A stretch of 64,000 nt of DNA from positions 45,606 to 109,605 of IMG/VR virus record IMGVR_UViG_3300003322_000327. The stretch is one strand, 5' to 3'. This DNA comes from a virus. The notes under the pieces are model-generated. The model saw only the letters and a list, made by a program, of their open reading frames with translations, searched no databases and was not told the origin of the DNA. This document shows positions 26,900-63,487 of the stretch, piece by piece. A program made the position numbers and the translations under genes. How positions within the stretch are numbered: the stretch's first letter is position 1; each line of letters opens with the position of its first letter.

Positions 26900-27199
26900 A
26901 TGCAACTGCAGGCAAAAGCACGACTCCAGGCTAGCGCGAACCAAGAGGACGTACTCGAGGTCGCGCTTCAACGCCAGGGTCTTTCATACACCAAGGTCGA
27001 TGACAGGACCTTCAAGATCAAGCGTGTGGATCAAGCCAGTGCACTCGCCTCACTTTTGAGGCGCATCGTCGAGCACTTCGACAAGGATGAAGGTGCGTAC
27101 CTGGACCATGGGCCCGAAGGCTATCGGATCTTCAATCCCAAGTCGGACTGGCGCCTGACGACCGACAACGGTGAGCTTCTTGTCAAGCGGGTGAAGTGA
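26900..27199 (+). CDS. Shared-peptide (CTS-like) unknown protein
   Basis: 99 residues from ATG 26900, chosen over the adjacent ATG 26897 by alignment with sister proteins. The N-terminus MQLQAKARLQA is a copy of the recurring peptide. The remainder is a small alpha/beta domain (LEVALQRQGLSYTKVDD). Probably packaged in the head if the peptide is a capsid-targeting sequence. Overlaps the next gene by one base. Confidence 0.7.
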   Translation: MQLQAKARLQASANQEDVLEVALQRQGLSYTKVDDRTFKIKRVDQASALASLLRRIVEHFDKDEGAYLDHGPEGYRIFNPKSDWRLTTDNGELLVKRVK

Positions 27200-27627
27200 T
27201 GCCAACACCGTACATCAAGAAGCTCTCGAAAGAGGGCAAGGGTTCGGTCCCAAGTCTCGAAAAGAAATGGGATCGAGCCAAGGACGCTGCGGCAAAGCAA
27301 GGTCACAGCAAGGACTACGGGTACGTCACCAACATCTTCAAGAGCATGTCACACGCAAGTCTCAAACTCCAGGCCAAGTCGAGGCTGCAAGCGACCGAGT
27401 ACATCCCCGACACGAAGAAGCTCGCGGAGTGTCACATCGAACGCTGGTACGATCGTTCGATCCGCAGCTGGACGGTTGTCCTCAAGGACAAGGACGACAA
27501 CCAGGTCGGTGACAGCATCGTCGTCGGCACACAGGGCGAAGCCAAGAAGATCACGAAGGACAACCCGGCGTTCAACGTCCGGGACTTCGATGCCGAAAAC
27601 GCACTCCGCTACAGGAAGAAGTCATGA
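27199..27627 (+). CDS. Unknown protein with internal CTS-like peptide
   Basis: 142 residues. Residues 1-50 form a charged helical module (YIKKLSKEGKGSVPSLEKKW ... DYGYVTNIFKSM) of a kind I associate with T4-like phage proteins. The shared peptide LKLQAKSRLQA follows at 54-64, and then a C-terminal domain of about 75 residues. Either the module and tagged protein are fused, or translation can also begin at the internal ATG (27346, MSHASLKLQAKSR). No strong ribosome site is seen before 27199. Function unknown. Confidence 0.65.
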   Translation: MPTPYIKKLSKEGKGSVPSLEKKWDRAKDAAAKQGHSKDYGYVTNIFKSMSHASLKLQAKSRLQATEYIPDTKKLAECHIERWYDRSIRSWTVVLKDKDDNQVGDSIVVGTQGEAKKITKDNPAFNVRDFDAENALRYRKKS

Positions 27628-28592
27628 AACTCCAAGCCAAGAGCCGCCTGTTGGCGATGACGCTGACCGGCCCGCAACGCGACCGCATCATCCAGTCACT
27701 GATCGACAGCGAAGAGCTGTCGCCGAACGACGATCCGCACTCGATGTCGGACGACGAGCTGGTTCGCGAGTACAAGCGCATCCACCACGTCCCGGACAAC
27801 TGGGAGCCGTCCATGCTACTCGCATCCGCAGGTCGTGACAGCTTCAATGTCAAGGTCAGCTATGACGATCCGACCGGCAAAGGCATCGCCTCGACCTCGG
27901 TTCTGATCAGAGACTGCACCGATGCTGAACAAGCGCGTCGACTCTTCAACGAGCGCTACAAGCATCACTACAAGAACCCCAAGATCACGAGCGTGATCAA
28001 GGTCAAAAACCTTCAGGCCGATGCCGGTCTCGAGCGCTGGCTCCACGAGATGGCCGATATGCACGGCGCTCAAGGCAATGACGAGGACGGCCGTGCCACG
28101 GTCATGGATGCGCTGCGCAAGAGTCGCGATCGCAATCCGGTGATCATCGTCGTCGGCGATGGGACCCCGAAGCACGTGTTCACGCTCGGCCCGTCGAACC
28201 AGATCGCGACCGACAGCCTGCACGGCCTGTACGACGACGCGCGCACCTACAAGTGCGAGTACGGCGGCAAGCGCTGCGAGTTCAGGACCCTGGCGGTCAT
28301 CGATGTAGATGACTTCATGGACCACTACTCATCGGTGCATGCGTCGAAGACGCAGCCGGGTCACAAGCCCATGGAAGCCGCATCAGCCATCGGCGCCGAC
28401 TTGAAGAATGCGATCACGAGCGTGGTCGTCCGAACTCTGAAGGTCCCAACCCCGAAGGACAAGGTGATCACCAAGGTGCTGGCCGACCCGACGGTCAAGA
28501 ACTACATGAAGGCAACCGGCGCTGGCGAAGAGCTCGTCAAGACCTACGCTGCGCGCGTCTGGGACGAGTTCGAAGCTGCCGTCGACCACTGA
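27624..28592 (+). CDS. Shared-peptide (CTS-like) unknown protein
   Basis: 322 residues starting MKLQAKSRLLA, overlapping the previous stop (ATGA). The rest is mixed alpha/beta with a possible zinc site (CEYGGKRCEF followed by HYSSVH, about 211-239), resembling a C2H2 finger. The C-terminal 75 residues are helical. No family assigned. Likely virion-internal by its N-terminus. Confidence 0.7.
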   Translation: MKLQAKSRLLAMTLTGPQRDRIIQSLIDSEELSPNDDPHSMSDDELVREYKRIHHVPDNWEPSMLLASAGRDSFNVKVSYDDPTGKGIASTSVLIRDCTDAEQARRLFNERYKHHYKNPKITSVIKVKNLQADAGLERWLHEMADMHGAQGNDEDGRATVMDALRKSRDRNPVIIVVGDGTPKHVFTLGPSNQIATDSLHGLYDDARTYKCEYGGKRCEFRTLAVIDVDDFMDHYSSVHASKTQPGHKPMEAASAIGADLKNAITSVVVRTLKVPTPKDKVITKVLADPTVKNYMKATGAGEELVKTYAARVWDEFEAAVDH

Positions 28593-28603
28593 AGGAGAAT
28601 CAC

Positions 28604-29860: not shown

Positions 29861-29868
29861 GGTCTCTT

Positions 29869-30321
29869 ATGGAGCTACAAGCAAAACAAAGGTTGATGGC
29901 AACGAAGCTACCGTCGTGGGCTGAAAGGAAAGCTCAGTCCACGATTTGGTCTCTAGTTCAAGGCGGCAAGTTGACCGGTCGGCACACAGTCAGTCTCACT
30001 TCAGATCGTGAGCCGACCTGGAAGGTTGAACCCGACGGTGTCATCGATGTCCGCATTCCTCGCCAGTACTTCGATGCGTGCAAGCGTCTTAACGCTGGTT
30101 GGGCTCTTCTGCATTCTGTGCAGCATGAGCTATGGGAAGCGAAGGTCGCGATCAACCTGGCGCGCAAGCAGTATCCGTCGATGAGTCCTTACGTTGCAGC
30201 TGAGAACAAGCAGCACCTCGGTGGTGAAGCTCATGCTCTGACTTGTGAAGAACTCGACGGCTTGACCTCAGACGAATACGACAAGCAACTCCAGCTCGAG
30301 TATTCATACCTTGGACTCTGA
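29869..30321 (+). CDS. Shared-peptide (CTS-like) unknown protein
   Basis: 150 residues from ATG 29869, starting MELQAKQRLMA. The open frame extends left over the previous gene and is ignored there. The central part is alpha-helical and contains SVQHELWEAKVAINLARK. No family recognised. Confidence 0.68.
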   Translation: MELQAKQRLMATKLPSWAERKAQSTIWSLVQGGKLTGRHTVSLTSDREPTWKVEPDGVIDVRIPRQYFDACKRLNAGWALLHSVQHELWEAKVAINLARKQYPSMSPYVAAENKQHLGGEAHALTCEELDGLTSDEYDKQLQLEYSYLGL

Positions 30322-30322
30322 C

Positions 30323-30922
30323 ATGGAACTCAAAGCTGCACAGAGGCTTCAAGCCTCGACATTCATGCCCGATCGACTGGTCATGATCGACTGCGAGATG
30401 ACCGGCCTCGATCCGAAGGCCGATGACCTGATCCAGATCGCGGCCATCAAGCTGGAGCTGCAGGGCGATCAGTACATCGAGACCGGACCGGATCTCAACT
30501 TCTTCATCCACACCGACAAGCAGCCTGCGTCCGAGTTCGCGCGCAAGTACATGAGCGACGTCTACAAGCAAGCAAACGAGTCGACCGTCGACTACGTGCA
30601 AGCGAAGGCAATCCTCGACTCGTGGCTCGGAGACTGGAAGGGCGAGGTCAGCCCATGCGGCGACTGCGTGCCCACCGACGTGCTCTTCATGTACATGAAG
30701 GGCGTCATCGGTCTCTCCAGGTACGAGGGCGATACTCCAGTCAAGGGCACCTTCCACTACGAGTACTTCGATATGAACGCCATCAAGGCGCTGGCCCGTC
30801 AGAAGAAGGGCTACAAGTTCGACAAGGAACTCGAGCGCCTACCTGGTGATCACGATGCGCTGGTCGACTGCCGCAACCAGCTCGTGGAAATGAACGCCAT
30901 CATCAAGGTCCTGCTCTCATGA
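30323..30922 (+). CDS. DEDDh exonuclease (oligoribonuclease-like) with CTS-like peptide
   Basis: 199 residues. After MELKAAQRLQA the sequence enters a DEDDh exonuclease: Asp23 and Glu25 in MIDCEMTGLDP, a middle Asp, and His177/Asp182 in GDHDALVDC. This is the layout of oligoribonuclease, which degrades 2-5-base RNA and some DNA. The N-terminal peptide is absent from ordinary oligoribonuclease and matches the shared peptide, which suggests packaging in the head and injection with the DNA. The alternative start is ATG 30311, four residues earlier. Confidence 0.82.
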   Translation: MELKAAQRLQASTFMPDRLVMIDCEMTGLDPKADDLIQIAAIKLELQGDQYIETGPDLNFFIHTDKQPASEFARKYMSDVYKQANESTVDYVQAKAILDSWLGDWKGEVSPCGDCVPTDVLFMYMKGVIGLSRYEGDTPVKGTFHYEYFDMNAIKALARQKKGYKFDKELERLPGDHDALVDCRNQLVEMNAIIKVLLS

Positions 30923-32159: not shown

Positions 32160-32160
32160 C

Positions 32161-32703
32161 ATGCTGCTCGTCGCCGAAACTCTGACTCAGTATCTGACGC
32201 GCCTCAGCCAGGACTTGAAGATCAAGATGGCTGGCCGTGGAGCGTACTCTGTGGTCTTCGACTACCCGCCTGATCGGGACATCGTGGTCAAGGTCAGCGC
32301 CGGCGATCGATCGTATCTGCAGTTCATCCAGTTCTGTAGGCTCAACGAAGGCAACCGTTGGCTCCCTCAGGTCCTCGATGTCCACAAGCTGGAAGTCGAG
32401 GATCAGGACGAGGTGTGGGCGGTCTTCCTCCAGCGCCTGACGCCTGCGTCTGCGATCCAGGTCAACAACGCATTCAAGACCGAGATCGCACCATGGGTCA
32501 CGGACTTCACGGTCTACTCAGACAGGGCTCGACTCTCGTTCCCCGAGTGGAAGAATGTGATGCGCATGGCCTCGGACCCGCAGACCCGCAAACTCGCGCT
32601 CTTCCTCATCACCCACTTCAATCGGTTGGACCTGCTGACGCAGAATTTCATGATGCGTGGCTCCCAGCTCGTGTTCAACGACCCTCTGAGTCCGATCACA
32701 TGA
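32161..32703 (+). CDS. Compact protein-kinase-fold protein
   Basis: 180 residues. A glycine loop GRGAYSVVF (25-33), a VAIK-like Lys44 (IVVKV), a hinge-like AVFLQRL (87-93) and a catalytic-loop-like RLDLLTQN with Asp157 and Asn162 (spacing of five, as in kinases) are visible. NDPLS follows with Asp174 in the place of the DFG Asp. All key polar residues are kept although the protein is far smaller than a normal kinase. It may phosphorylate a protein or small molecule, or be a pseudokinase. It overlaps the next, shared-peptide gene as ATGA. Confidence 0.65.
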   Translation: MLLVAETLTQYLTRLSQDLKIKMAGRGAYSVVFDYPPDRDIVVKVSAGDRSYLQFIQFCRLNEGNRWLPQVLDVHKLEVEDQDEVWAVFLQRLTPASAIQVNNAFKTEIAPWVTDFTVYSDRARLSFPEWKNVMRMASDPQTRKLALFLITHFNRLDLLTQNFMMRGSQLVFNDPLSPIT

Positions 32704-33200
32704 AACTCCAAGCCAAGCAGCGACTGATCGCGAGGCAGGATGCGACCTCGGCCTTCGATCCTGGTCTCATAGAGCGCATGACGCCGGTTGACTACAAGTC
32801 GAGGTACAAGCTCGTGAACATGAGCATCCGCGACTTCCTCAAGATGGCGCGTCCTGGTCACGACAAGGTCAAGGAGCGCGACGTCAAGGATCTGGTGAAG
32901 AAAGGCGTCAAGTTCAACTCGGTGCCTTTCCTCACCTTCGATGCCAACGGTGACGATGATGCACGAGTCACTGGCCACGAAGGTCGCCATCGTGCGCGCG
33001 AACTCCAGGCTCAAGGCTACACGCACATGCCGGTCGAACTCCGTGGTCCGATTCGCTGGTCGGAGCAGGCTGATCCGAAGCGCTTCGACTACCGTGAGTC
33101 GTGGCCTGAAGTCCTAGTCTCGGAAGACGGTACCGACTACATCCCATTCCCTGTTCCACGGGAAGAGGCCACCCATCCATACAAGCCGGTGACATCATGA
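32700..33200 (+). CDS. ParB/sulfiredoxin-like domain protein with CTS-like peptide
   Basis: 166 residues beginning MKLQAKQRLIA. Residues about 77-115 contain PFLTFDANGDDDARVTGHEG and RHRARELQAQGYTHMPVEL, which resemble the GHEGRHRA block of ParB/Srx-like domains in phage proteins. ParB-type domains bind or cut nucleic acids or hydrolyse nucleotides, but activity here is unproven. Translationally coupled to the kinase-fold gene. Confidence 0.6.
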   Translation: MKLQAKQRLIARQDATSAFDPGLIERMTPVDYKSRYKLVNMSIRDFLKMARPGHDKVKERDVKDLVKKGVKFNSVPFLTFDANGDDDARVTGHEGRHRARELQAQGYTHMPVELRGPIRWSEQADPKRFDYRESWPEVLVSEDGTDYIPFPVPREEATHPYKPVTS

Positions 33201-33399: not shown

Positions 33400-34140
33400 A
33401 TGACGCACAAAGAACTCAGGGCCGCGATGCGCCTCACTCTCTTCGCTGAATTCAATGCGGTCGATCCGAACCGTGTGGTTCCGAATCACGACGGCTCTGA
33501 CCATCAGTTGCGCGTCGCTCTCGACAAGCTCGATCGGATGAACGATCGCAGGGCCAACTTCCCGGAAGAAGGTGCCGACGTCGGCTCCATGACCAGGCCT
33601 GAAGGCGAGCTCTTTCCGTACTCGGTGAACGTGGCTGCAGGCATGAACCCGGACGGCACGATCAAGGTCAAGACCATGGAAGTCAAAGCTGCATCGATCG
33701 AAGACGCAATGCGCATCGCGACCCAGATGAATGCGGGCCGTGAGACAGGCTACGGCGCTGGTGTCCTGCTCTTCAGTCGCAAGACCGGCCGGTTCCTGTT
33801 CGTCAAGCGCGGTCCGAACGGCGACGAGCCTGGCACCTGGTGTACGGGTGGCGGTGGCGTCGAACCTGACGAGACCATCGAGCAGGCCGTGCGGCGTGAG
33901 AACCAGGAAGAGCTGGGATTCGACGGCGAATACGAGCTGATCCACATGGATCGTCAGGCGAGCCCAGGCTTCGTCTTTCACAACCACATGGCTGTCATCG
34001 ATGACGAGTTCGAGCCCGTGCTCAACGACGAGCACACCGAGTACAGGTGGTGTGAGCCGGACCAGATTCCGGAGCCACTCCATCCCGGCCTCAGGCTTGC
34101 TCTCTCCAACTGGATGAAGCGGCAAGGAGTAAGCGAATGA
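33400..34140 (+). CDS. Nudix hydrolase with N-terminal extension
   Basis: 246 residues. The Nudix box GGVEPDETIEQAVRRENQEE plus LG (about 151-172) fits G-x5-E-x7-R-E-x2-E-E-x-G, so hydrolysis of a nucleoside diphosphate-linked substrate is expected; the substrate cannot be read. About 115 residues precede the Nudix domain. The start MTHKELRAAMRLTLFA resembles a degenerate copy of the shared peptide (compare MELKAAQRLQA), so it may also be a head cargo. Confidence 0.85.
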   Translation: MTHKELRAAMRLTLFAEFNAVDPNRVVPNHDGSDHQLRVALDKLDRMNDRRANFPEEGADVGSMTRPEGELFPYSVNVAAGMNPDGTIKVKTMEVKAASIEDAMRIATQMNAGRETGYGAGVLLFSRKTGRFLFVKRGPNGDEPGTWCTGGGGVEPDETIEQAVRRENQEELGFDGEYELIHMDRQASPGFVFHNHMAVIDDEFEPVLNDEHTEYRWCEPDQIPEPLHPGLRLALSNWMKRQGVSE

Positions 34141-35153
34141 CGCTGACTGAAGTCAAGGGTCTGCTGACCCGTCTCGGCTTCACCGAGCTGAGCCTCGTCA
34201 AGTCCGACGAAGCAGCCCGCACCTACACCTTCCAGTTCAAGCAGTTCAATCCCAAGCTCATGAAGTCGAAGCCGACGATGGCTGCGAAGGGCTCGGTCGC
34301 TATCTGGGAACTGGAAGACGTCGGCAAGATCGGCGTCAGCCCATCGAACCAGGTGGTCCGGTTCATCGATGCAGGCAAGCGCACGCAGGTCCCGAAGGCC
34401 GATGACTCGCACCTGTCACGAGCAACAGCTGTGCCGGAAGAGCTGGAGCAGCAGTTCCAGAAGGCGGTCATCAACCCAGGCAAGCGCGTCCAGTTCATGA
34501 AGAACCTGTGGACGTTCTACAACCGCGAGAAGTTCGGCGGTCGCATGGAGATGCCGGCCCTGAAAACTTCGAACACGGGCGCTCCGAAAGGCACTCGCAT
34601 GTTCCATCGTGGAGGTCCGCACTTCACGACTGGTATGATCTGGGTCGCCGAGTACATGTGGAATGCACGGCTGCCGTTCTTTCTCGAACTCTTTCTTCAC
34701 GAGATGTGCCACCAAGCGGTGTGGGACCTGGACCGGATTCTCGATCGAACGGAGCAAGGGCACGGCAAGGACTGGCAGCGCCGGATGACCCACGTCGGCC
34801 TCGATCCCCGCCGCTTCGATCCGACCGACAACCAGGAGTACACGACTGGCCTGTCCAAGGCTCAGGAAGAAGAGAAGCGAACCGACCTGTACGGTCCATC
34901 CGCTGACCCAGCAAGCCTGAAGCACCTGCGACGCATGACCCAGTTCGAGCCCGGTGACTGCTTCATGCTCATCTACGGTCGTCTGGTCAAGGGCTATCTG
35001 CGGACCAGCGGTCGCAGCTTCACCTTCACGTTCCGACGCCACGACTCAGGCAACCTGACGGGTCTCGCGTACCCGAGCCTCAAGTCGTTCGAAGAGGAAG
35101 CGTTGCCGAACCTCTACCACTACCCAAAGGGACGCACAGTCCCGAAGGACTGA
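34137..35153 (+). CDS. SprT-like zinc metalloprotease
   Basis: 338 residues. The zinc site HEMCH (about 187-191, with Glu as general base) and the downstream GHGKDWQRRM (third ligand) match SprT/Spartan-type proteases; SprT-like proteins are linked to DNA-protein crosslink repair. About 115 residues precede the domain and about 80 beta-rich residues follow (FTFTFRRHDSGNLTG). It overlaps the Nudix gene as ATGA. The role may be to remove host proteins from phage DNA (inference). Confidence 0.78.
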   Translation: MTLTEVKGLLTRLGFTELSLVKSDEAARTYTFQFKQFNPKLMKSKPTMAAKGSVAIWELEDVGKIGVSPSNQVVRFIDAGKRTQVPKADDSHLSRATAVPEELEQQFQKAVINPGKRVQFMKNLWTFYNREKFGGRMEMPALKTSNTGAPKGTRMFHRGGPHFTTGMIWVAEYMWNARLPFFLELFLHEMCHQAVWDLDRILDRTEQGHGKDWQRRMTHVGLDPRRFDPTDNQEYTTGLSKAQEEEKRTDLYGPSADPASLKHLRRMTQFEPGDCFMLIYGRLVKGYLRTSGRSFTFTFRRHDSGNLTGLAYPSLKSFEEEALPNLYHYPKGRTVPKD

Positions 35154-36661: not shown

Positions 36662-36682
36662 AAGGTCCCTCGCGGACCTTTT
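36662..36682 (+). terminator. Rho-independent terminator or 5' leader hairpin
   Basis: Stem AAGGTCC (36662-36668) and GGACCTT (36674-36680), 5-base loop CTCGC, followed by TT. By form it is a short intrinsic terminator for the preceding virion gene. Its position just downstream of the CGATAAATAG box is unusual. Confidence 0.65.
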
Positions 36683-36716
36683 GGCGCCTCTTCAACCCTT
36701 TCGTCTAGGAACCAAA

Positions 36717-44046: not shown

Positions 44047-44375
44047 GTACCGAAGTCGGTTTCGAGTACAGCTATAACGGACGTCAGGGCTTCGTCCGAG
44101 CCACGAGTTTCAGGCAAGCCCTCGACCACGCCAAGGTCAACTACCTGGTGCAGATTGGCTATGGCCCTCGGCACCCCAAGTTCAGGCTCAAGAAGTCGGA
44201 GTTGAGTGACGCACCGTTCAAACTCAAGTTCTCCGATCTCTCGTTCCAGCGCTACAAGGAACTCTACCTAGGGTTCCGCGAAGATCAACTGAGCGAAAGC
44301 GGCAAGGCAACGCTGTCGGACTTTCAGACCATCATCAAAGACAAGGAAAAGTTCAATGAGCTCCATCACCTCTGA
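44043..44375 (+). CDS. Unknown protein
   Basis: 110 residues from ATG 44043 (ATGA overlap). It has a beta-rich N-terminus and a charged helical C-terminus. It overlaps the large SNF2-type gene by 20 bases, suggesting coupling. Confidence 0.6.
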   Translation: MSTEVGFEYSYNGRQGFVRATSFRQALDHAKVNYLVQIGYGPRHPKFRLKKSELSDAPFKLKFSDLSFQRYKELYLGFREDQLSESGKATLSDFQTIIKDKEKFNELHHL

Positions 44376-47300
44376 AGCCGCGGCACCGCTGATGAAGCTG
44401 CCGCCCAACCCACTGCGCGCAGCAGTCCTCAAGCGTCCTCGCACGAACCTGGTGCCGAATCAGGACTACGCGCTGACCAAGGACCAGATGCAGTCGGGCT
44501 TCATGGCCGTCTTCAACTGGGCCTACTCCGGCGACCCGCGCAAGACCATGCTGAAGCTGGCGTTCAGCCCGCTGATGAACATGGCTTCGCTCTCGACTGG
44601 CAAGATGCCGGCCGCGAAGACGCCGGAGCAACGCAAGGAGCGCAAGAACCTCAACCAGTCGATCGCCGAGTGGGAGAAGAAGCGCCAGGACTTCAACCTC
44701 GCGCAGTACACGACCCTCAAGAAGGTCAACGCTGGCAACGAGAGCCACTTCTTGCTCGGTCTTCCGATCGTCAAGGTGTCGAGCCCTGACTCGGCCAACG
44801 CCGTGCTGATGATGTTCGGCGCCGAACCGCTGACCGACGAAGCGCGTGAGACCTTCAACGCGCCTCGTGACAAGCAGGTCACCGAAGACGGCACGCAAGC
44901 CGGTCCTCAAGTCGTGGCTTACGCGGCCTCTAAGTGCCTGGCCAAGGCTGGCCTCAACGGTGACACGACGGTCATGTTCGCCAAGTGCCTGCAAGCCGTT
45001 CGGTACTACTACACCGAGCACGATGTCGTCATCTTCCTCGAGTTCAAGATCCTGCCGCACGAAGCGCAGTATCTGGTCTCGGAAGACTGGGCGCAGATTC
45101 GTCCGGTCGACCTGTACCCGCTGTTCACGATGTGGGTCGAGGCCGAGTACGTGTCGAAGAAGTACGGCAAGAGCGCGACCTCGATGTCGAAGATCGCGCA
45201 GACGCTGCCGAAGCACCTGCCCGGCGACGAGCGTGTTGATCAGTTCAACATCTCGATCAACATGAAGGGTGAGCCACTCTGGATTCCGAAGGAGTGCGAC
45301 AACACCGTCAAGTACGAGACCATGTTCTCTGACGCAGGTCAGCAGGGCTCGGGCGAGTTCGCCCTTCGAAAGCCCGGCGCCTACAAGCAGCTGCAGCTGC
45401 CGGTCAACATTCCGATCCTGACCGACTGGGTGAACAACAAGTTCACGTACTCGAATGCGACGGGCAAGCCGCAGGTGATTGACCTCGCTCACTTCCGCAA
45501 GTGCAACGCCGCGATGGCGATGAACTTGATGAAGAAGTCGATGAAGAACAAGTACTTCACGACACTGCAGTACTACGGCGAAGCGGCTGGCCTGTCCGTC
45601 GTCGCCAAGGACTACGGTGCCGACACGAGTCACTGGCCGAACGCCAGCGACGACATGTCGATCGAGGACTATGCCAACTTCGCCCTCGCGCAGTTCTTCC
45701 AGCTCACCAACTCGGGCGCTCTCACGTTCTACGAACTGATGGACTCGCTGGCTCAGGCCAACCTGGATCGCGGCGACAAGGGTGCGCTCGATCCCAACGA
45801 TCCGGCAATGCTGCTGGCCCCGCTGGCGCGCTTCGTCGTCGCTCTCGGCCCGGCCATGATCCGCAACATCGACTCCATGTACAGCAAGTATGCGGTGATT
45901 ACGATGACGGAAGCGCTAGGCATGATCCAGCTGCTGGCCAGCTACGGGTCCGATCTCACTGGCACGCAGATCGCGGCTGACACGATCAACAAGCCGGCCA
46001 TCAACCAGGGCATCGACAAGAACTGGCAACCGGGCGCCATGCCGCTCGTCACCAAGAAGTTCAGCGAGCCTGACCAAGGTCTGCTGCCCCACCAGTACAA
46101 GGTGCGGAACATGCTGCGTCATCGTCCCGACCTGGCGGCTCTGCCGGTTGATGCTGGCGGTGGCAAGTCGATGCTGGCCATCACGGACGTGCTCGAAGAG
46201 ATCAAGCATGGCGAGTCGGAGCCGTACCTCATCATGTGCCCGTCGCACCTGGTGGCGAACTACGTGTCCGAGATCGTCGAGTTCACTGACGGCAAGGTCA
46301 ACGTGATCCCGGTTACGAGCTACAACATCCGTACCACGGGTATCGCTCGCTTCACCGAGATCCTGGAGGCGGCGCCGATCAACACCATCCTGATCGTCGA
46401 CTACGACGCTCTCAAGTTCCGGTCTCGCGCCACGGTTTATGGCACGACGACCATCACCGTGTACCCTGTCATCGAGCTGATCCGTCAGTTCCAGCCAGGC
46501 TACGTGTTCATGGACGAGTCGCACTTCCTGCGCAACGTCAACTCGGCGCGCATGAAGTCGGTGATGACCCTGGTCGCCGACATCAAGAAGAAGCGCCTGG
46601 CTTCCGGCACCATGAACCCCGACTCTCCGTCCGACCTGCCCGGTCAGATGGCGATCCTGGACCCGACGGTGTTCGGCACCCGTTCCGAGTTCAACGAGCA
46701 GTACGGTGAAGTCGTCAAGGGTCAGCGCGTCATCAGCTGGAAGCGCCACGGGCCGAACGCCGTCTCCACGGTGCTGACGAAGCTGCGTGGTTCCGTCGTC
46801 TGGGCCGGCGCCAAGCGCAAGGAATGGGCTTGCGCCCTGCCCGAGCGTCATGACCACTTCATCAAGGTCAACCTGACTCCACGTCAGAAGGAGATGTACG
46901 ACGCGATCTTCGACGACATGGTGGCGTCGATCCGCAAGGCTGCCGAGTCGGACAAGAATGCCAAGGCTCTGTTGGAGAAGCTGACGGGCAAGAAGGCAAG
47001 TGCCGAAGACGAAGAGAAGTTCGGCGACCTCGGTGACGTTCAGCCCGAGGACGAGGAAGACGATTCGGAAGATGACGTCGATGACGTGGGACCGGCTCTC
47101 CAGCCGTACCTGGCCGATATCGAGCGTTTCGTCACCAACCCAGGCTTCCACCCGTACGCTCGCAACGGCTTCATCAACGCTGAAGGCCAGAAGATCCCGC
47201 CGCTGACCGGCGACGACCTGAAGAGCCCGAAGGCGATCGCCCTCGAGTATCGACTGCGTGAGTACCTGAACACGCATGAGTCGAAGGCCATCATCTTCAC

Positions 47301-49233
47301 GAACTACAACGAGTCGACGGACAGCCTCTTCAACGCGATGCCGGACGACCTCAAGGCTTGCGGTCTGCTCTACAAGACCAGCAGCAAGACCGAGATGGTC
47401 AACGCGTTCAAGAAGAACCCGAAGATCCGCTGGATGATCGGTATCCGCAAGAGCCTGGAAGTCGGCCTGAACCTGCAGCAAGCCGGCTACCTGTGCCGCA
47501 TGGAAGGTGTGTGGACGCCGGGCGAACAGGAGCAAGGTGACGCCCGTATCGAGCGCCCGAACTTCGGGCCCAACGGCGACAAGCGCACGGCTCTCCAGTT
47601 CGACACCATCGTGGCGAACCGGACGATCGACGTGACGAAGGCTGCCCGCCTCCGCGCCAAGATCGTGGCTCTGGCGAAGTTCGACAACAACCTCGACCCT
47701 GCGTATCAAGCGATCCCGGACATTCCTGTCATTCCGATGACGCTGGAAACGATCCAGACCATGAATGACTTCGACGACAACCTGGCGGCATACCAGGAGT
47801 CGATGAACATGCTGTCTGAGCACATCAAGTCCGAGTACGCCGAGTACAAGAAGCAGATCCTGGCTGCGGGCGGCTTCAAGTTCACGCAGGTGGCACAGGC
47901 TCCGACGCCTCCGGGTGCAGCGCTGTTGGCACGCGTGCCCTATGCCCAGGGTACCGAGCTCTACAACGCCTCCGAGATGGGCCTCGTCCGGGTCGACAAC
48001 TACCTGGGCATGGAACTGACCGGTGAAGACGATGACGACGACGCGCCGCCGATCGAGGATGATGACGAGTCGAAGGACAGCGCGGTCATCAAGGCTCAAC
48101 GAGCCAAGGTGATGGGCATGCGCTGCCACTGCGAGTTCGGCGATGGTGTCATCTTCGGCGCCGCCGCTCTCGGCAAGGGCAACTTCATCTCGCGCGTTCA
48201 CGTCGCACTCGACGACGGCACGAAGGCACGTGGTCTCAAGGCCACGAACGTCTTCGTCATGACCAGGACCGAGACCAACTCGATCGACATGCGAAACAAG
48301 ATCGCCCAGGCCGCAGGTCTGGACATCACCGCACCGATCACGGTTCCGGGTCTCGTCGTCAAGCAGTCGAAGGTGACGCAGAAGCAGCAGCGTGAACAAG
48401 AGAAGCAGCGCCAGCTCGAGATCCGTAAGGAGCAACTCGAGAAGCACAGCCTGGACAAGAAGGCGAAGCTCGCCATCGGCCTCCAGCTCTCGTTCATGAA
48501 CGGCTACATGCGTCTGCACTACGACATTGGCACCAACCAGGCCGCTGTAAAGGCGCTGCAGGCTGTCGGCTTCCAGCACGACCTGCCGTACTATCAGACG
48601 CGAATCAAGAGCTACAAGCAGCTGATCACTCAGGTCGAGAACTGGCTCGGGTCCGGCAAGTTCGAACTCAGCTCCAAGGTCGACCAGGATGCGTTCGAGG
48701 CCCTGGCACAAGAACTGGCGAACGGTACCATCGCGACTCGTGCGCGCTACATGCGCATGATGAGCGGCGGCAACTTCCGCAACTACCTGCGTCAAGCCTT
48801 CAAGCCGAGTCCGGATCGGACTCGCCTGTGTCTGTTCTCCATCGTCACTGACGGTGGCGATCGTGATCCGGGCGCTCTCAAGGAAGCGGAACGCAAGGGC
48901 GTGAACCCGAACTTCGGGGTCGCATACTTGTGTCTGCCTTCGGGTGGTGGCTTCCCTGGATCGAAGCTCGCGGTTGCTGACAAGTACAAGGCGCCCGGTA
49001 CGCGCTGGACCCTGTCCGACTCGTCGATGAGCCTGTTCGTCAACAACCTGCGGGGCGCGGCTGCCGTGCTCAACGAGTTGGGTCGTGCAGGCGTCAAGAT
49101 CGAGAATGGCGATGAGATCCGTCACCAAGCTGCGAACATGAAGAAGCTGACGCCGAAGGACGACGACACGATCGACCGTCGTGTCGCCGATGACGAAGCC
49201 GCGGGTGCTGCACCCGATCGCGGAGCCAAGTAA
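44356..49233 (+). CDS. Giant SNF2-type ATPase/helicase
   Basis: 1625 residues, the longest gene here. Helicase motifs lie in the middle: Walker A PVDAGGGKS (about 596-604), Ia LIMCPSHLV, DESH box FMDESHFLRN (about 717-726), III LASGTM, IV AIIFTNYNES and V-VI GIRKSLEVGLNLQQAG with EQEQGDARIERP (about 1055). An acidic insert (about 890-915) separates the two RecA lobes. The first 560 residues and the last 350 (with an alanine/lysine/glutamate-rich coiled coil near 1335-1375) are unassigned. Large SNF2 proteins in phages include anti-restriction proteins such as P1 DarB, but no methyltransferase motif is seen here. Confidence 0.85.
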   Translation: MSSITSEAAAPLMKLPPNPLRAAVLKRPRTNLVPNQDYALTKDQMQSGFMAVFNWAYSGDPRKTMLKLAFSPLMNMASLSTGKMPAAKTPEQRKERKNLNQSIAEWEKKRQDFNLAQYTTLKKVNAGNESHFLLGLPIVKVSSPDSANAVLMMFGAEPLTDEARETFNAPRDKQVTEDGTQAGPQVVAYAASKCLAKAGLNGDTTVMFAKCLQAVRYYYTEHDVVIFLEFKILPHEAQYLVSEDWAQIRPVDLYPLFTMWVEAEYVSKKYGKSATSMSKIAQTLPKHLPGDERVDQFNISINMKGEPLWIPKECDNTVKYETMFSDAGQQGSGEFALRKPGAYKQLQLPVNIPILTDWVNNKFTYSNATGKPQVIDLAHFRKCNAAMAMNLMKKSMKNKYFTTLQYYGEAAGLSVVAKDYGADTSHWPNASDDMSIEDYANFALAQFFQLTNSGALTFYELMDSLAQANLDRGDKGALDPNDPAMLLAPLARFVVALGPAMIRNIDSMYSKYAVITMTEALGMIQLLASYGSDLTGTQIAADTINKPAINQGIDKNWQPGAMPLVTKKFSEPDQGLLPHQYKVRNMLRHRPDLAALPVDAGGGKSMLAITDVLEEIKHGESEPYLIMCPSHLVANYVSEIVEFTDGKVNVIPVTSYNIRTTGIARFTEILEAAPINTILIVDYDALKFRSRATVYGTTTITVYPVIELIRQFQPGYVFMDESHFLRNVNSARMKSVMTLVADIKKKRLASGTMNPDSPSDLPGQMAILDPTVFGTRSEFNEQYGEVVKGQRVISWKRHGPNAVSTVLTKLRGSVVWAGAKRKEWACALPERHDHFIKVNLTPRQKEMYDAIFDDMVASIRKAAESDKNAKALLEKLTGKKASAEDEEKFGDLGDVQPEDEEDDSEDDVDDVGPALQPYLADIERFVTNPGFHPYARNGFINAEGQKIPPLTGDDLKSPKAIALEYRLREYLNTHESKAIIFTNYNESTDSLFNAMPDDLKACGLLYKTSSKTEMVNAFKKNPKIRWMIGIRKSLEVGLNLQQAGYLCRMEGVWTPGEQEQGDARIERPNFGPNGDKRTALQFDTIVANRTIDVTKAARLRAKIVALAKFDNNLDPAYQAIPDIPVIPMTLETIQTMNDFDDNLAAYQESMNMLSEHIKSEYAEYKKQILAAGGFKFTQVAQAPTPPGAALLARVPYAQGTELYNASEMGLVRVDNYLGMELTGEDDDDDAPPIEDDDESKDSAVIKAQRAKVMGMRCHCEFGDGVIFGAAALGKGNFISRVHVALDDGTKARGLKATNVFVMTRTETNSIDMRNKIAQAAGLDITAPITVPGLVVKQSKVTQKQQREQEKQRQLEIRKEQLEKHSLDKKAKLAIGLQLSFMNGYMRLHYDIGTNQAAVKALQAVGFQHDLPYYQTRIKSYKQLITQVENWLGSGKFELSSKVDQDAFEALAQELANGTIATRARYMRMMSGGNFRNYLRQAFKPSPDRTRLCLFSIVTDGGDRDPGALKEAERKGVNPNFGVAYLCLPSGGGFPGSKLAVADKYKAPGTRWTLSDSSMSLFVNNLRGAAAVLNELGRAGVKIENGDEIRHQAANMKKLTPKDDDTIDRRVADDEAAGAAPDRGAK

Positions 49234-50277: not shown

Positions 50278-51078
50278 ATGACTGGTCCGCGCTTTCCGCG
50301 TCAATACTTCTCGCAGGTGGAGCGCAAGGTCCAAGCTGAAGCCGAGCCTCAAGCCGAGGCTCCGGCTCAGCCGCTGATCCAAGGTCTCGGCCGTTCGGAC
50401 GAGCGTGCTGTCGATGGCGAGAAGGAACCCTCAGTCATCGAGCGCGTCGACTTCGAGTCGTGGCTGCCCTTCGCTGCGAAGACGTACCACATCAGTCCCC
50501 GTATCGAGGACTATGTTTTCAAGAACATGCCGATCTGTCCTTCGGACTTCCCGAATCGGAACGGCATCGCATTCCCGCTGCAGGAGCTCGTGCAGTTCCT
50601 GCCGCCTCCGATGAATCGCCAGGTCTTCAAGGCCTGGCAAGGCTGCCCAGTTCACCTCGAGCACGACAACGAAGACTGCACCAAGGCGTACGGTGTTGTC
50701 TTCGACACGAGCCTAAGCAAGATCCATGGCTACGGTCAAGGCAAGCACTGGAAGGTCATGGGCCTCATCGGAGTCGACAAGACCAAGTACCCGGAGATCG
50801 CGCAGGAAGTCCTGGACGGCAAGATCATCACGGGCTCGATGGGCGCCTTGGCAGACAGGTTCACGTGCTCGGTCTGCGGCCGCGAAGCCACCGAGAACAA
50901 GTTCATGAACTGCAACCACGTTGGCTCCACGAAGGAAGTCAATTGGAAACTCGTGGACTACATGGGCCAGCAACACATCGCGTACCTGAATGCGCACGGC
51001 CTCAGCCCGATCGAGTACAGCCTGGTGCGCGACCCTGCCTGGGTTGCTGCTCTCTCCGATCACATCATGGCATGGTGA
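50278..51078 (+). CDS. Prohead maturation protease
   Basis: 266 residues. His126/His129 in CPVHLEHDN and Ser187 in KIITGSMGALAD fit the His-Ser layout of herpesvirus/T4 gp21/HK97-type prohead serine proteases, and gene order (protease, scaffold, capsid) agrees. A C-x2-C at 197-200 (CSVC) plus CNH at 212-214 forms a probable zinc finger just after the catalytic Ser, an unusual insert. Residues 1-50 are a Pro/Ala/Glu-rich leader that may be self-cleaved. It probably trims the scaffold, capsid and tagged internal proteins. Confidence 0.75.
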   Translation: MTGPRFPRQYFSQVERKVQAEAEPQAEAPAQPLIQGLGRSDERAVDGEKEPSVIERVDFESWLPFAAKTYHISPRIEDYVFKNMPICPSDFPNRNGIAFPLQELVQFLPPPMNRQVFKAWQGCPVHLEHDNEDCTKAYGVVFDTSLSKIHGYGQGKHWKVMGLIGVDKTKYPEIAQEVLDGKIITGSMGALADRFTCSVCGREATENKFMNCNHVGSTKEVNWKLVDYMGQQHIAYLNAHGLSPIEYSLVRDPAWVAALSDHIMAW

Positions 51079-52604: not shown

Positions 52605-54092
52605 ATGACCAAGCAACTGCGAGCCGCTGCTTCGACCACGATGACTCACGACGGCAACGATCTGAATCTCAAGGTCGAACAGGGTGACGCCGGTCTCGAA
52701 AACTCGCAGGAACCGATGGGCCTCATCGATCCCGCGAGCCTCGATTCCGGTTTCACGCACTCGGACGAAAAGCCGACGATGCCCGGCATGAAGGCCAAGG
52801 CGCCGACGACCGCGGGCACCAAGGCCGACAAGCCGAAGGTGGAAGCCAACGGCGCGATGTCGGAACCGCTCAAGGATGAAGAGATTCCTCCGGGCGGCAA
52901 GATCGCCGAGATGGACAACGAACAAGACCCGGCCGTGGGCTACCTGAACAAGGAAGCCGACATGCCCGTCATCAACAACGCCAGCGTGGAAGACGACGCG
53001 CCGCCTCCGGGTTCGGAGATGGACGACGACGCCGAACCGGAAGCCGACCTCGAAGCCACGACCGACGACAACGGCGCCGGCGAGTTCGACGACCTGCCCG
53101 GCATCGAAGCGTCGGACGAAGGCGATGACGACTCGGAGTTCGAGGACCTGGAACCGGAAGCGCCGATGCCCGAAGCGTCGTCCGCCATGGAACCCAACGC
53201 GAGCCCGACCGAGGAAGTCGCCGAGTTCGAAGCAGCTCCGCCGTCCGACGAAGAGCAGCCTCTCGTCGACGTCGACGAAGTGCCCGACAACGAAGGCTCC
53301 GAAGACCTGGTCTTCGCCGCCCTGGGCAACAGCGTCCACGTGATCCGCAGCAACCGCATCATCGCCTCGATGGGTCCGGCCTCCGCGCGCAAGCTCGGCG
53401 TCCAGGACGTGTTCCAAGGCGAACAGTACGAAGCCGTGGTCGCGCACGCGATCGACACCAAGGGCCTGCGCAAGGGTCTGGTGCAGCAAGGTTTCGTCCT
53501 GGCCAAGGTCAAGATGACGGCCTCCAAGGCCACGTCGAAGATCGTGAAGGCCAAGGTCGAAGCCGGCATGAAGGACAAGCTCGAAGCCATCGCCAAGCAG
53601 AACAAGGCGATGGAACAGAGCCTGGCCATCGCAGCCGTCGGCATCAACAAGCAGTACTGGAAGGACGTCCCGAACGAGCTGAAGGCCAGCCTCATCACCG
53701 AGCTGGAACAAGCCGGCGTTCGCGGTGCCAAGCGCCTGGTGTCCTCCGTGTTCGCGTCGCATGGCGTGAGCTACGCGCGTCAGATCCTGGCCCTGGCTCA
53801 GCGCATCGCGGCCATGCCCGAAGAAGTCCGTGACAACCACGCCGAGAGCCTCGACATGACCAGCGATGGTGATTTCGATGACGACGACATGGTCGAATCG
53901 GGCGCCGAGTGCATGGACGGCGAGCCGGTCAACGAGTTCGAGGAGTTCGAGACGGAAGTTCCCGCTTCCGTGACGGCCGCCCTCGCGAACCCGATGCACC
54001 GTCGCGTGAGCCAGACCAAGATGATCGCCGGCGTGAAGGACATGCAAGGCGTCAACAGCTTCCTGTACGGCGGTCGGTCGCTCATCGGCTGA
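52605..54092 (+). CDS. Prohead scaffold (core) protein
   Basis: 495 residues from ATG 52605 (GAAGGAG 8 bases upstream). Residues 1-230 are very acidic and low-complexity. Residues 235-400 form an ordered, helical, lysine-containing part (KATSKIVKAKVEAGMKDKLE). The acidic C-terminus ends in a small Gly-rich stretch. Acidic helical protein directly between protease and capsid is the scaffold (T4 gp22) position. The start MTKQLRAAAS has an L-R-A that could be a cleavage site. Confidence 0.72.
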   Translation: MTKQLRAAASTTMTHDGNDLNLKVEQGDAGLENSQEPMGLIDPASLDSGFTHSDEKPTMPGMKAKAPTTAGTKADKPKVEANGAMSEPLKDEEIPPGGKIAEMDNEQDPAVGYLNKEADMPVINNASVEDDAPPPGSEMDDDAEPEADLEATTDDNGAGEFDDLPGIEASDEGDDDSEFEDLEPEAPMPEASSAMEPNASPTEEVAEFEAAPPSDEEQPLVDVDEVPDNEGSEDLVFAALGNSVHVIRSNRIIASMGPASARKLGVQDVFQGEQYEAVVAHAIDTKGLRKGLVQQGFVLAKVKMTASKATSKIVKAKVEAGMKDKLEAIAKQNKAMEQSLAIAAVGINKQYWKDVPNELKASLITELEQAGVRGAKRLVSSVFASHGVSYARQILALAQRIAAMPEEVRDNHAESLDMTSDGDFDDDDMVESGAECMDGEPVNEFEEFETEVPASVTAALANPMHRRVSQTKMIAGVKDMQGVNSFLYGGRSLIG

Positions 54093-54860: not shown

Positions 54861-55922
54861 ATGCAACGCATCACCGCCAACGTCCGCCCGGCCAAGTCGC
54901 CCGTGCTGGCCACCGAGCTGAAGCTCGCCGGTTCCAACGAGCTGGCCGTCGGCCGCAACGGCGAACTGAACGCCTCGTCCAAGCGCGACCTGCTCGAACA
55001 GCAGCGCAAGTTCCTGACCGCGGCCTCGCAAGGCAACATGCTGGCCATCAGCCGTCAGGAATCGCGTGACCTGGTCCAGGCCGCCTTCAACAGCCCGGAA
55101 GCGCACCGCGTCCTGGGCGAGAAGATCAGCGAGAGCCTGTACATCACGGCGAACCGTCAGGGCTTCATGCGCAAGTACCTGGCCCGGATCGACGTGGAGA
55201 TCGGCAGCGTGCCGCGCTTCCCGCTGCGCAACAAGAACGTGACGGCCGTGTGGTCGACCAGCCCGACCAAGGTCGAGTCGCAGATCACGCGCGACAAGTG
55301 GTTCACGCCGCCGGAACTGACGGTCGTGGCCCGCCCGTTCATCCCGCAGGTCGAACTGAACCAATCCAGCGGCGACGTGCTGCAGGAGAAGTACATCGAG
55401 GCCGTGGAAGCCACGATGGTCGCCGAGGACCGCCTGTACTACAACCAGCTGCAGAAGCTGGTCGGCGTCGACAACAACCTGACCATCGTGTCGGGCCAGC
55501 TGACGCCGTACAGCCTCATGACCGTCGTGACCAACGTCACGCGCTGGGGCCTCAAGGGCGCCCACCTGCTGATGGCGACGGACCTGTGGCAAGACGTGGT
55601 CGGCAACTCCGACTTCTTCCAAGCCATCGATCCGGTCGCGCGTCACGAGCTGCTGCTCACCGGCGAGCTGGGCACGATGTACGGCATGACCGTGACGTCG
55701 GACGCGTTCCGTCACCCGGAACACAAGGTCCTGGGCCAGGGCGAGTTCTACGTGATCTCGGACGCGCTGAACCACGGCGCGTACTCGGATCGCGGCGGCA
55801 TCCAGTCGACCCCGATCGACATCTCGATCGAGAAGATCCCCGGCCGCGGCTTCGTCCTGCACGAAGCCCTGGCGGTGTCGGTCGCGAACAGCCGTTCGTT
55901 CGCCAAGGGCTATCGCCTGTAA
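54861..55922 (+). CDS. Major capsid protein
   Basis: 353 residues with CAGGAGAAACTC before the ATG. It sits downstream of protease and scaffold and has the strongest codon bias seen, as expected for a highly expressed gene. The first 55 residues are polar/helical, like a removable delta domain, with L-N-A (36-38) and L-T-A (52-54) as candidate cleavage points. The body has PELTVVARPFIPQVEL and a C-terminal YGMTVTSDAFRHPEHKVL typical of HK97-fold capsid A-domains. No vertex paralogue is seen in the window. Confidence 0.78.
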   Translation: MQRITANVRPAKSPVLATELKLAGSNELAVGRNGELNASSKRDLLEQQRKFLTAASQGNMLAISRQESRDLVQAAFNSPEAHRVLGEKISESLYITANRQGFMRKYLARIDVEIGSVPRFPLRNKNVTAVWSTSPTKVESQITRDKWFTPPELTVVARPFIPQVELNQSSGDVLQEKYIEAVEATMVAEDRLYYNQLQKLVGVDNNLTIVSGQLTPYSLMTVVTNVTRWGLKGAHLLMATDLWQDVVGNSDFFQAIDPVARHELLLTGELGTMYGMTVTSDAFRHPEHKVLGQGEFYVISDALNHGAYSDRGGIQSTPIDISIEKIPGRGFVLHEALAVSVANSRSFAKGYRL

Positions 55923-59498: not shown

Positions 59499-59511
59499 AG
59501 GAGCAACAGCC

Positions 59512-59757: not shown

Positions 59758-59768
59758 AAGGAACCAAG

Positions 59769-60287: not shown

Positions 60288-60301
60288 GTCCAGCGGAGAA
60301 G

Positions 60302-60655: not shown

Positions 60656-60668
60656 CCAAAGGATTGAC

Positions 60669-60911
60669 ATGAAGCTCGAAGCCAAAGCCCGGCTTCTAGC
60701 CGCTGATCAGAATGTCATGTTGCACGTCAAGTACGTGTTCCAGGCCATTCATCAGGCGGAAGCACAACTGAACTCGATCAAGCCCCTGGTCGAATCGGAG
60801 CCGAGCAAGCTCACGGTCCTGGCCAAGCTCAACCTCGAGTTGTCGAAGCTGCGTGAGCTCTTCGATGCCGAGATGCCTCAACTCTACGAAGACAAGGAAC
60901 AGCAGCCATGA
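60669..60911 (+). CDS. Shared-peptide (CTS-like) small helical protein
   Basis: 80 residues beginning MKLEAKARLLA, with AAAGGA upstream. The rest is a helical hairpin (AIHQAEAQLNSIKPLVESE, LNLELSKLRELFDAEM), coiled-coil prone. Overlaps the next gene by ATGA. Confidence 0.7.
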   Translation: MKLEAKARLLAADQNVMLHVKYVFQAIHQAEAQLNSIKPLVESEPSKLTVLAKLNLELSKLRELFDAEMPQLYEDKEQQP

Positions 60912-61237
60912 AGCTCCTTGCCAAGAGCCGCCTGCTCGCCCTTCAAGACATGAAGACTCTGGGGCACAAGGTGCTTGACGTCCTGGTCGACACCTTTCCG
61001 ACCGAAGGCTTCGAGCTCACGCGTCACAGTCCACAAGAGATCCGAAGCAGCGGACACCTCACGGACGGCATGTTCAAGATCGCAGGTCGCGACCTCAACA
61101 AGCTGGTGTTCTCGCACCTGGGCTACAAGGTCGAGGACAAGGGCAAGTCCATCAAGTGGACGAAGCACGGCGAACCGATCTGGTTCATGGTCCACGTCGG
61201 TGGCAAGGTTCACGTCTACGAGCAAGGCGAGGACTGA
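60908..61237 (+). CDS. Shared-peptide (CTS-like) unknown protein
   Basis: 109 residues beginning MKLLAKSRLLA. Alpha/beta body (VLVDTFPTEGFELTRHSPQE ... HVGGKVHVYEQ). ATGA overlap with the preceding gene; the next tagged gene starts one base after its stop. Confidence 0.7.
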   Translation: MKLLAKSRLLALQDMKTLGHKVLDVLVDTFPTEGFELTRHSPQEIRSSGHLTDGMFKIAGRDLNKLVFSHLGYKVEDKGKSIKWTKHGEPIWFMVHVGGKVHVYEQGED

Positions 61238-61238
61238 G

Positions 61239-61463
61239 ATGAAGCTCCAAGCTCGATCAAGACTCAAGGCGGACGAGGTCAACACCAAAGACCGTCCGCC
61301 TTCGACCTACCTGGACGAGGCCGAAATGGATCATGCGATGCCGGACGGAAGTGCGGCGCCTGGTCCGATCGGAATGGGTGTTGGGCTTGGAGCCGCACAA
61401 CGGCTGCTGAGCACCAGCCCCATGTTCGGTAGTCCTGGCATGGAAGCGTACGAAACCCTGTGA
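61239..61463 (+). CDS. Shared-peptide (CTS-like) small protein
   Basis: 74 residues from ATG 61239, beginning MKLQARSRLKA. The remainder is Gly/Met/Pro-rich and probably disordered (GPIGMGVGLGAAQRLLSTSP). It is little more than the peptide plus a flexible tail. Confidence 0.65.
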   Translation: MKLQARSRLKADEVNTKDRPPSTYLDEAEMDHAMPDGSAAPGPIGMGVGLGAAQRLLSTSPMFGSPGMEAYETL

Positions 61464-61474
61464 AGGAGATGGCG

Positions 61475-62164: not shown

Positions 62165-62165
62165 C

Positions 62166-63131
62166 ATGCAGCTTCAAGCACGTATGCGCCTCCTGGCCAC
62201 GGAGGCCGAGGATGTGACCTACGAGCAGTACGCAGCAGTCGTTGCTTCCCTGGCGCACGACCCGCACAAGCTGCAAGCCTTCGACTTTCAAGTGCCTGGT
62301 GCGCTGAAGAAGCTGTGGTCAGAGCTGAAGGAAGTCGGCCAACTCCTCAAGGACTCGGCGGGAATCGGCTGGGACGCGATCGTCCAGGCCTTCAAAGAGA
62401 AGTCGGTGTTCACGTTGCTCAAGGGTGTCGGCTTCTCGCTCTCCAAGCTCATGACCGCAGTGCGCAAGGCCATGGCGCTGCCTGCAGCTGCCGTGTTCCA
62501 GGCCTTCGATGATCTGGTTGACACCTTCGGGTCCGCTCAGATGCTGCAGAAGCTGGACGTACACGAGCGGATCAAGAAGCTGGACGAAGTGATCCATCGC
62601 CATCCGGTCCTGACCAAGGTGACGGGCATCGCAGTCGCAGGCTTTCTCGTCTGGGCCTTCCTCCACGGTTCGACCGTGGGAGACATGGACTACGATCTAG
62701 GCGTCGTCGAGGCAGTCATCAGCTGCATCAAGGGCGACTTCGATCTGGCAGACATGTTTGCCTCCAAGAAGGGCCTGCGCGACATCTCGGTGCTGCTCTT
62801 CGGACTCGCAACCGGCGGCATCGGCATCACAGCCTACGGAGCCTCGCACGTCGAGCCGATGCTGAAGTTCCTGGGCTCTCACGCGGGTCAAGCCAGTTCG
62901 ATGATGATCGCTCTCTTCTACGCAGCAGCGAAGAAGCTCGGCCTCCACATCGACTACTCCGGGATGCCGAGGCCAATGACCGCATCTCTGGTGACGGACC
63001 CGAAGGCGCCACACGGTCGAAGCCACAAGTGGTTCCACGCGCTGCCGTACAAGGAGCGCAAGGCCTACATCAAGCGCTACCCTGGCACCAAGTTCGGGTC
63101 CGAACATAGCATCATCCTTCCGAAAGCCTGA
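62166..63131 (+). CDS. Shared-peptide (CTS-like) membrane-prone protein
   Basis: 321 residues beginning MQLQARMRLLA. The body is helical with hydrophobic helices near 153-170 (VTGIAVAGFLVWAFLHG) and 210-225 (DISVLLFGLATGGIGITAYG). The C-terminus is basic (SHKWFHALPYKERKAYIKRY). If it is injected with the DNA, such helices could help DNA cross the inner membrane (inference). Confidence 0.7.
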   Translation: MQLQARMRLLATEAEDVTYEQYAAVVASLAHDPHKLQAFDFQVPGALKKLWSELKEVGQLLKDSAGIGWDAIVQAFKEKSVFTLLKGVGFSLSKLMTAVRKAMALPAAAVFQAFDDLVDTFGSAQMLQKLDVHERIKKLDEVIHRHPVLTKVTGIAVAGFLVWAFLHGSTVGDMDYDLGVVEAVISCIKGDFDLADMFASKKGLRDISVLLFGLATGGIGITAYGASHVEPMLKFLGSHAGQASSMMIALFYAAAKKLGLHIDYSGMPRPMTASLVTDPKAPHGRSHKWFHALPYKERKAYIKRYPGTKFGSEHSIILPKA

Positions 63132-63133
63132 TC

Positions 63134-63487
63134 ATGAAACTCCAAGCCAAGTCACGTCTGCTCGCTGCCGGTCCCGGGGAAGCGATGGAGGCGCTGGTGC
63201 GCGACGCCTACAACTACGTTCAGAGTCTCGGACTGAAGACAAGCAATCGATCGCCCGATGCCCTCACATACCGTATTGCATTCAAGGTCAACATGACTCT
63301 CGAAGCTGCGGAACAAGTGTTGGAACGTCACTTTGGCAAACCCGAACGAGTGTACGAGGACCCCATCAAGCACTACATCAGTCGCACTTGGGACACGGAT
63401 CGTGCGCAGGGTCGAAGCATCACTCTCAAAAAGGTACGTGGGAACCTGCAGGTAGTCCTGTTGCAGTTGAGTGCCCGCAAGACCTGA
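63134..63487 (+). CDS. Shared-peptide (CTS-like) unknown protein
   Basis: 117 residues beginning MKLQAKSRLLA, 2 bases after the previous gene. Small alpha/beta domain (MTLEAAEQVLERHFGKPERV), reminiscent of the tagged protein at 26900 in size and layout. Function unknown. Confidence 0.7.
   Translation: MKLQAKSRLLAAGPGEAMEALVRDAYNYVQSLGLKTSNRSPDALTYRIAFKVNMTLEAAEQVLERHFGKPERVYEDPIKHYISRTWDTDRAQGRSITLKKVRGNLQVVLLQLSARKT

Follow-up and report, generated by a model that had tools for sequence, protein, structure and literature searches.

A short N-terminal peptide shared by unrelated proteins of a jumbo-myovirus clade is a probable capsid-targeting propeptide

In phage T4, the internal proteins IPI-III and Alt carry capsid-targeting sequences (CTSs) of about 10 N-terminal residues that consist of a docking and a processing part and are cut during head maturation (PMC9026906, PMC5694885), and CTS-like sequences are already known on varied internal proteins of this phage (PMC9026906). 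In phage P1, DarA is an internal head protein that is N-terminally processed and delivered with the DNA (PMC12810830, PMC5512222), and the N-terminus of DarB is a sufficient CTS (PMC9024508, PMC12810830); a targeting sequence common to the Dar proteins was sought, and no consensus N-terminus was found (PMC9024508). Inner head proteins of phages phiKZ and SPN3US are cut by the phage protease at a three-residue motif, and two SPN3US paralogues have an identical N-terminus (PMC5694885). Here we analyzed a stretch of 64,000 nucleotides (the window; GC content 60%) that comprises bases 45,606–109,605 of the 109,605-base viral record IMGVR_UViG_3300003322_000327, and in which many unrelated proteins begin with a common peptide of the type M-x-L-x-A-x-x-R-L-x-A, hereafter the tag. 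Judged from the sequences, the tag is very likely a bipartite capsid-targeting propeptide that would direct proteins into the prohead and be cleaved there, with the cargo being injected.

L-x-A-x-x-R-L-x-A is carried by 14 proteins of the window, 13 of which have it at the N-terminus and one just behind an internal ATG (Table 1). All 13 starts that an earlier note on this DNA had listed encode the peptide, in the form M-x(1,2)-L-x-A-x-x-R-L-x-A, and the internal copy that it had reported for the open reading frame (ORF) 27196–27627 is present as well. A six-frame scan of the window with the strict pattern L.A..RL.A gave 15 matches, 14 of them on these ORFs and all 14 on the plus strand, with the sole additional match lying out of frame at 26291, whereas base-shuffled versions of the window gave 0–2 matches. 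In the 45.6 kb of the contig that precede the window, tags did not exceed the control level. The bodies had been described as unrelated, and indeed the 14 window bodies represent 14 separate BLAST families. As to the internal copy, an in-frame ATG at 27346 (MSHASLKLQAKSRLQA) lies 7 codons upstream of the core. A relative shares this arrangement, and the segment upstream of the tag is conserved there as well, so that this gene could possibly have two starts. A segment of about 50 residues (KKLSKEGKGS...LEKKWDRAK...YGYVTNIFKSM; window 27196–27363) precedes the internal tag and is conserved in locus L147.

A profile search of the peptide across phage genomes, as had been suggested in the earlier note, maps the tag to a clade of jumbo myoviruses that includes Achromobacter phage Motura and Burkholderia phage BcepSauron. 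The survey was based on 66 viral loci encoding a related capsid protein, and the clade total amounts to 169 distinct tagged proteins, whose bodies form about 100 families including 77 singletons. Over 990 kb, a regular expression for the tag gave 123 N-terminal matches and 39 at other places, and the reversed pattern had no match in any of 16 genomes (0 in 16/16). In the larger sequences, a position-weight scan found 16 tags in Motura, about 17 in G002 and 12–13 in each of G006, G010 and G011, and PaBG remained at the control level. De novo motif discovery, to which the tag was not supplied, recovered it in Motura and G002, and no motif of comparable strength was found in PaBG. The N-termini of the head regions of the more distant relatives PaBG, Lu11, Y3 and Peetri, and of PhiXhv-12 and GR11A, contained no tag. 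Scanning a viral collection for two particular DNA versions of the tag gave 18 stretches, 15 of which also encode relatives of window proteins; in the other three (L165, L166 and L169), no such relatives were detected, and L165 is a short piece of a known clade contig. In sequences of 100–220 kb, such as Motura, G002, G006, G010 and G011, hardly any tag is farther than about 40 kb from the capsid gene. Several N-termini of NCTB (L173, L174) have the form M-[LK]-[IV]-x-[IL]-S, but as a separate lineage-specific tag this motif was at noise level in de novo motif discovery and was rejected.

A signature that resembles a cleavage site is found at the end of the tag. The final Ala is present in 129 of 166 tags, and the residue behind it, which lay outside the profile used for tag finding, is Ala, Ser or Thr in 80 of these 129 (62%, against a background of about 20%) and never Pro (0/129); from the second residue past the Ala onward, the composition is ordinary. 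When one protein per family is considered, Ala, Ser or Thr follows the final Ala in 55/77 (p ~1e-25, one draw). The assertion that similarity ends at the last Ala therefore needs a small correction, as the end is sharp but the next residue is still biased. Where the final Ala is missing (37 tags), a similar site often appears within 14 residues downstream, in the form of [LIVM]-x-A in 26/37 (background 21%) and of phi-(x)-A-A in 19/37 (background 5%), with family-level p-values of ~1e-8 to 1e-10 for the enrichment and with MKLQAATRLQVTAA and MKIQLNAAARLMETTEVVAA as examples, and the M-x-[LI]-x-A-x-x-R-L half is retained even then. Likewise, in the family of the protein at 62166, M1, L3, A5, R8 and L9 are invariant and the position of the putative site shifts. 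Such a pattern would be expected of a targeting part combined with a protease site that can shift, and cleavage would probably occur C-terminal to Ala.

Related N-termini are found on the head proteins themselves. Capsid proteins of the clade begin with [VIL]-x-A-x-[KR]-x-P-x-[VL]-A, mostly followed by Ala, Ser or Thr, for example MSKIKVQAARTPTVA|SEYRF and MRTHVSLRASKSPVLA|TEFKF (bars mark the proposed cut), and those of tagless relatives differ. Scored with the tag profile, with one gap allowed, the capsid N-termini of the clade reach a mean of 3.0, compared to −2.7 for shuffles and −6.1 for the tagless relatives, and 27% of them exceed the 95% shuffle level; the clade thus shows a genuine but loose resemblance to the tag. 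The scaffold-like proteins of the clade often have K-[VI]-x-A-[AS] at the N-terminus.

In our model, M-x-[LI]-x-A-x-x-R-L would be a docking signal that recruits late proteins of unrelated kinds to the prohead core during its assembly, and phi-x-A followed by Ala, Ser or Thr would be a processing site, at which the head maturation protease would remove the peptide C-terminal to Ala. The mature peptide of BcepSauron gp077, for example, would start with TSTIPGDTIAPGR, directly past the last tag Ala. Once freed of the tag, the proteins would remain with the DNA inside the head and would be injected at infection, where they may counter host defences and help in the take-over. Packaging, cleavage and injection are steps that we infer, and the T4-like interpretation that the earlier note had put forward is supported by the roughly 100 unrelated bodies, the clustering with head genes and the site-like signature, and is further favoured by the capsid- and scaffold-like N-termini and by cargo with a DarA_C domain. 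The chances are slightly better than even for the wider concept that one bipartite label marks most of the small head contents, with related versions on capsid and scaffold-like proteins, an Ala-specific protease, and an open-ended, fast-changing cargo.

Several points weigh against this capsid-targeting model. The p-values given above for the residue past the final Ala and for the displaced sites are indicative only, because the sequences are related and the tags were chosen by motif likeness. The N-terminus of the window's own capsid protein fits the tag loosely and scores below the 95% shuffle level, the position-weight scan found a small number of tags in BcepSauron (4–5), and some obvious candidates for packaging, such as the DarB-like helicase, carry no tag. 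Furthermore, the window protease has no detectable similarity to T4 gp21 (hhalign probability 0.3%, with a single T4 sequence), its structural model (mean predicted local distance difference test score, pLDDT, of 68) has no fold match in the PDB, and a convincing Pfam hit was not obtained either. Because neither profile nor fold ties the protease to gp21, both the identity of the cutting enzyme and a cut behind Ala are what we infer.

Other functions of the tag have to be considered. The peptide could send its carriers elsewhere, either to the membrane via an amphipathic helix or to a phage nucleus, with no role in the head, and it is indeed short, basic and plausibly helical, as a low-confidence helix at residues 2–15 in the model of the protein at 62166 (mean pLDDT 50) indicates. 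We consider this improbable, as the Ala, Ser or Thr position past the final Ala and the displaced sites point to a removal of the peptide and the capsid protein bears a related N-terminus. Moreover, the tag has no hydrophobic core that would make it a secretion signal, and the shell protein of the phage nucleus, chimallin (phiKZ gp54), was detected in none of 14 clade genomes, several of which are incomplete, whereas the phiKZ control was found. Equally little weight is given by us to the idea that the peptide is a propeptide for processing only, which would serve a protease-timed activation or assembly competence, with packaging driven by the bodies. In its favour, no other single signal is as strong as the cleavage-like signature, and targeting and processing residues are separable in the T4 CTS (PMC9026906). 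However, K-[LI]-x-A-x-x-R-L persists in tags without the final Ala, in which the site lies farther downstream, and this half of the tag is therefore kept for something other than processing; in addition, the bodies share no element that could drive packaging.

A role at the level of the DNA, as an element that boosts translation initiation or permits gene shuffling by homologous recombination, is very improbable. Two window tag starts share one 34-base match with 85% identity, and the first Leu is preferentially encoded by CTC (10/14), but pairwise comparison of the 14 window copies gave identities of 0.70, 0.81 and 0.375 at first, second and third codon positions, with 0.28 in the upstream and 0.30 in the downstream flanks, where 0.26 is expected by composition. 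The copies draw on all four Ala codons and all six Arg codons, and the one at 27367 lies away from the start of the longest ORF. With nearly free third positions and random flanks, this is a conserved peptide and not a DNA repeat, and selection acts on the peptide level. Least credible of all is that chance or common descent of the tagged proteins has produced the pattern, since short motifs may recur but the shuffled and reversed-pattern controls do not reproduce it and the bodies are unrelated. Phage-nucleus targeting, a secretion signal, a DNA repeat and chance were all rejected on the basis of the shuffle, reversed-pattern, codon and shell-protein tests.

The cargo that would be delivered according to the capsid-targeting model is diverse. 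In the window, it comprises one DEDD 3'-5' exonuclease and 13 proteins without assigned function. An orthologue of the protein at 62166 (L017:6384-7730) has a C-terminal DarA_C domain (E 6e-14), and in L016:7423 the tag is directly joined to DarA_C (residues 13–74, E 2e-10), which means that DarA_C occurs behind the tag in two architectures of the relatives; on the window protein tested, DarA_C was not detected. Two NUDIX proteins are also among the tagged bodies of relatives. Saccharopine-dehydrogenase/homospermidine-synthase-like enzymes are tagged in L119:8461-9897 and L130 (start 15892, minus strand), and a polyamine enzyme is thus possibly carried within the head; homospermidine synthases are known from Motura and phiRSL1 (PMC9992855). 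Many tagged proteins contain, often directly behind the tag, a module of about 25 residues, W-x-x-L-x(3-5)-[KR]-x-x-Y-x-x-[HY]-P-x-[ST]-K-[FY], for which no Pfam family was found. It is present mainly in tagged proteins, among them those of L022, L035, L051, L057, L072, L130 and others, and also near protein N-termini in the tagless relatives NCTB and PhiXhv-12. An ADP-ribosyltransferase identity of two candidates is not claimed, as the PDB sequence search was without a hit and Pfam gave a sub-threshold Arr match for one of them, and a metallopeptidase-fold Pfam match of the tagged protein L044:6736-7383 was below the cut-off and was not used.

The region belongs to a jumbo myovirus and forms its head and tail cluster (Table 1). 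Its capsid protein is 68% identical to those of the Burkholderia phages BcepSauron and BcepSaruman and 55% identical to that of Motura, and the cluster layout of these phages is the same. The order of protease, scaffold-like and capsid genes corresponds to that of genes 21-22-23 in T4. Untagged genes also lie among the tagged ones, encoding a topoisomerase IB (25273–26892), an SprT-like protein (34137–35153), a protein with a weak glycosyltransferase match (36681–37835) and the large subunit of a ribonucleotide reductase (37856–40228).

Table 1. Tagged genes of the window and selected genes of the surrounding head and tail cluster (window coordinates; aa, amino acids).
Feature	Position	Strand	Remarks
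Tagged protein, 99 aa	26900..27199	+	Tag MQLQAKARLQA, 26900-26932; no family match
ORF with internal tag	27196..27627	+	Tag KLQAKSRLQA (core 27367-27393); ATG 27346 would make tag N-terminal
Tagged protein, 322 aa	27624..28592	+	Tag MKLQAKSRLLA, 27624-27656; homologues in clade only
Tagged protein, 150 aa	29869..30321	+	Tag MELQAKQRLMA, 29869-29901
Tagged DEDD-type 3'-5' exonuclease (RNase_T, PF00929), 199 aa	30323..30922	+	Tag MELKAAQRLQA, 30323-30355
Tagged protein, 166 aa	32700..33200	+	Tag MKLQAKQRLIA, 32700-32732
Head-tail connector	starts 35155
Tagged mini-protein, 35 aa	42614..42721	+	Tag MKLQAKTRLQA, 42614-42646; tagged homologues of relatives 67-72 aa
Tagged protein, 204 aa	42718..43332	+	Tag MNLQAKQRLLA, 42718-42750
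DarB-like giant helicase (phrog_62)	44356..49233	+	No tag; PHROG match
Head maturation protease (phrog_18299)	50278..51078	+	Likely processing enzyme; PHROG match; H129 and S187 invariant in 30 homologues
Tagged protein, 116 aa	51084..51434	+	Tag MNKLQAKARLLA, 51084-51119; adjoins protease gene 3'
Acidic scaffold/core-like protein	52605..54092	+	Between protease and capsid genes
Virion structural protein	starts 54130
Major capsid protein (phrog_2522)	54861..55922	+	N-terminal MQRITANVRPAKSPVLA (54861-54911), putative propeptide
Tail sheath	starts 57555
Tail tube	starts 59769
Tagged protein, 80 aa	60669..60911	+	Tag MKLEAKARLLA, 60669-60701
Tagged protein, 109 aa	60908..61237	+	Tag MKLLAKSRLLA, 60908-60940
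Tagged protein, 74 aa	61239..61463	+	Tag MKLQARSRLKA, 61239-61271
Tagged protein, 321 aa	62166..63131	+	Tag MQLQARMRLLA, 62166-62198; C-terminal W-x-x-L...P-x-[ST]-K-[FY] module
Tagged protein, 117 aa	63134..63487	+	Tag MKLQAKSRLLA, 63134-63166

The proteins that a large phage injects are hard to learn, because most of them have no recognisable domain. If the capsid-targeting model is correct, the tag would be a readable label that lists such proteins, and about 100 mostly unannotated families would become candidates for anti-defence or take-over functions. According to the wider concept of one label for most of the small head contents, delivered enzymes would include the homospermidine-synthase-like dehydrogenase, the NUDIX hydrolases and the DEDD exonuclease, and any late gene that acquires the 11 codons would turn into injected cargo. 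The tag could also be used to fill very large heads with proteins of choice, and it would answer, for one lineage, the question raised for P1 of a targeting sequence common to internal proteins. As CTS peptides are known from T4, the tag is not a new principle, but the scale of the system is unusual; no description of this tag was found in the open literature, with subscription journals outside the coverage.

In comparison with the T4 CTS, the tag is likewise a short N-terminal peptide on sequence-divergent proteins, with docking-like and processing-like parts that are here deduced from sequence. It differs in its sequence, in the residue at the P1 position of the site (Ala here, Glu in T4), in the phage lineage and in a protease without detectable similarity to gp21, and the set is far larger, as a single genome can carry about 17 cargo genes and the clade has about 100 body families. 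The propeptides of phiKZ and SPN3US are different, as they mostly exceed 100 residues, use an A-x-E motif and occur on few proteins with no single shared short tag. Similar to polyvalent and other injected effectors, for which packaging and injection of DarA-family cargo domains are predicted (PMC5512222), DarA_C is found among the cargo; the part of that source used here does not name a packaging signal, whereas the small, mostly single-domain cargos described here share a putative one. The P1 Dar system (DarA, DarB, Hdf, DdrA, DdrB and Ulx) is resembled by the tagged DarA_C proteins of the relatives and by a DarB-like helicase in the late cluster, but this helicase is untagged here, and unlike in P1, the tagged proteins have an explicit consensus N-terminus.

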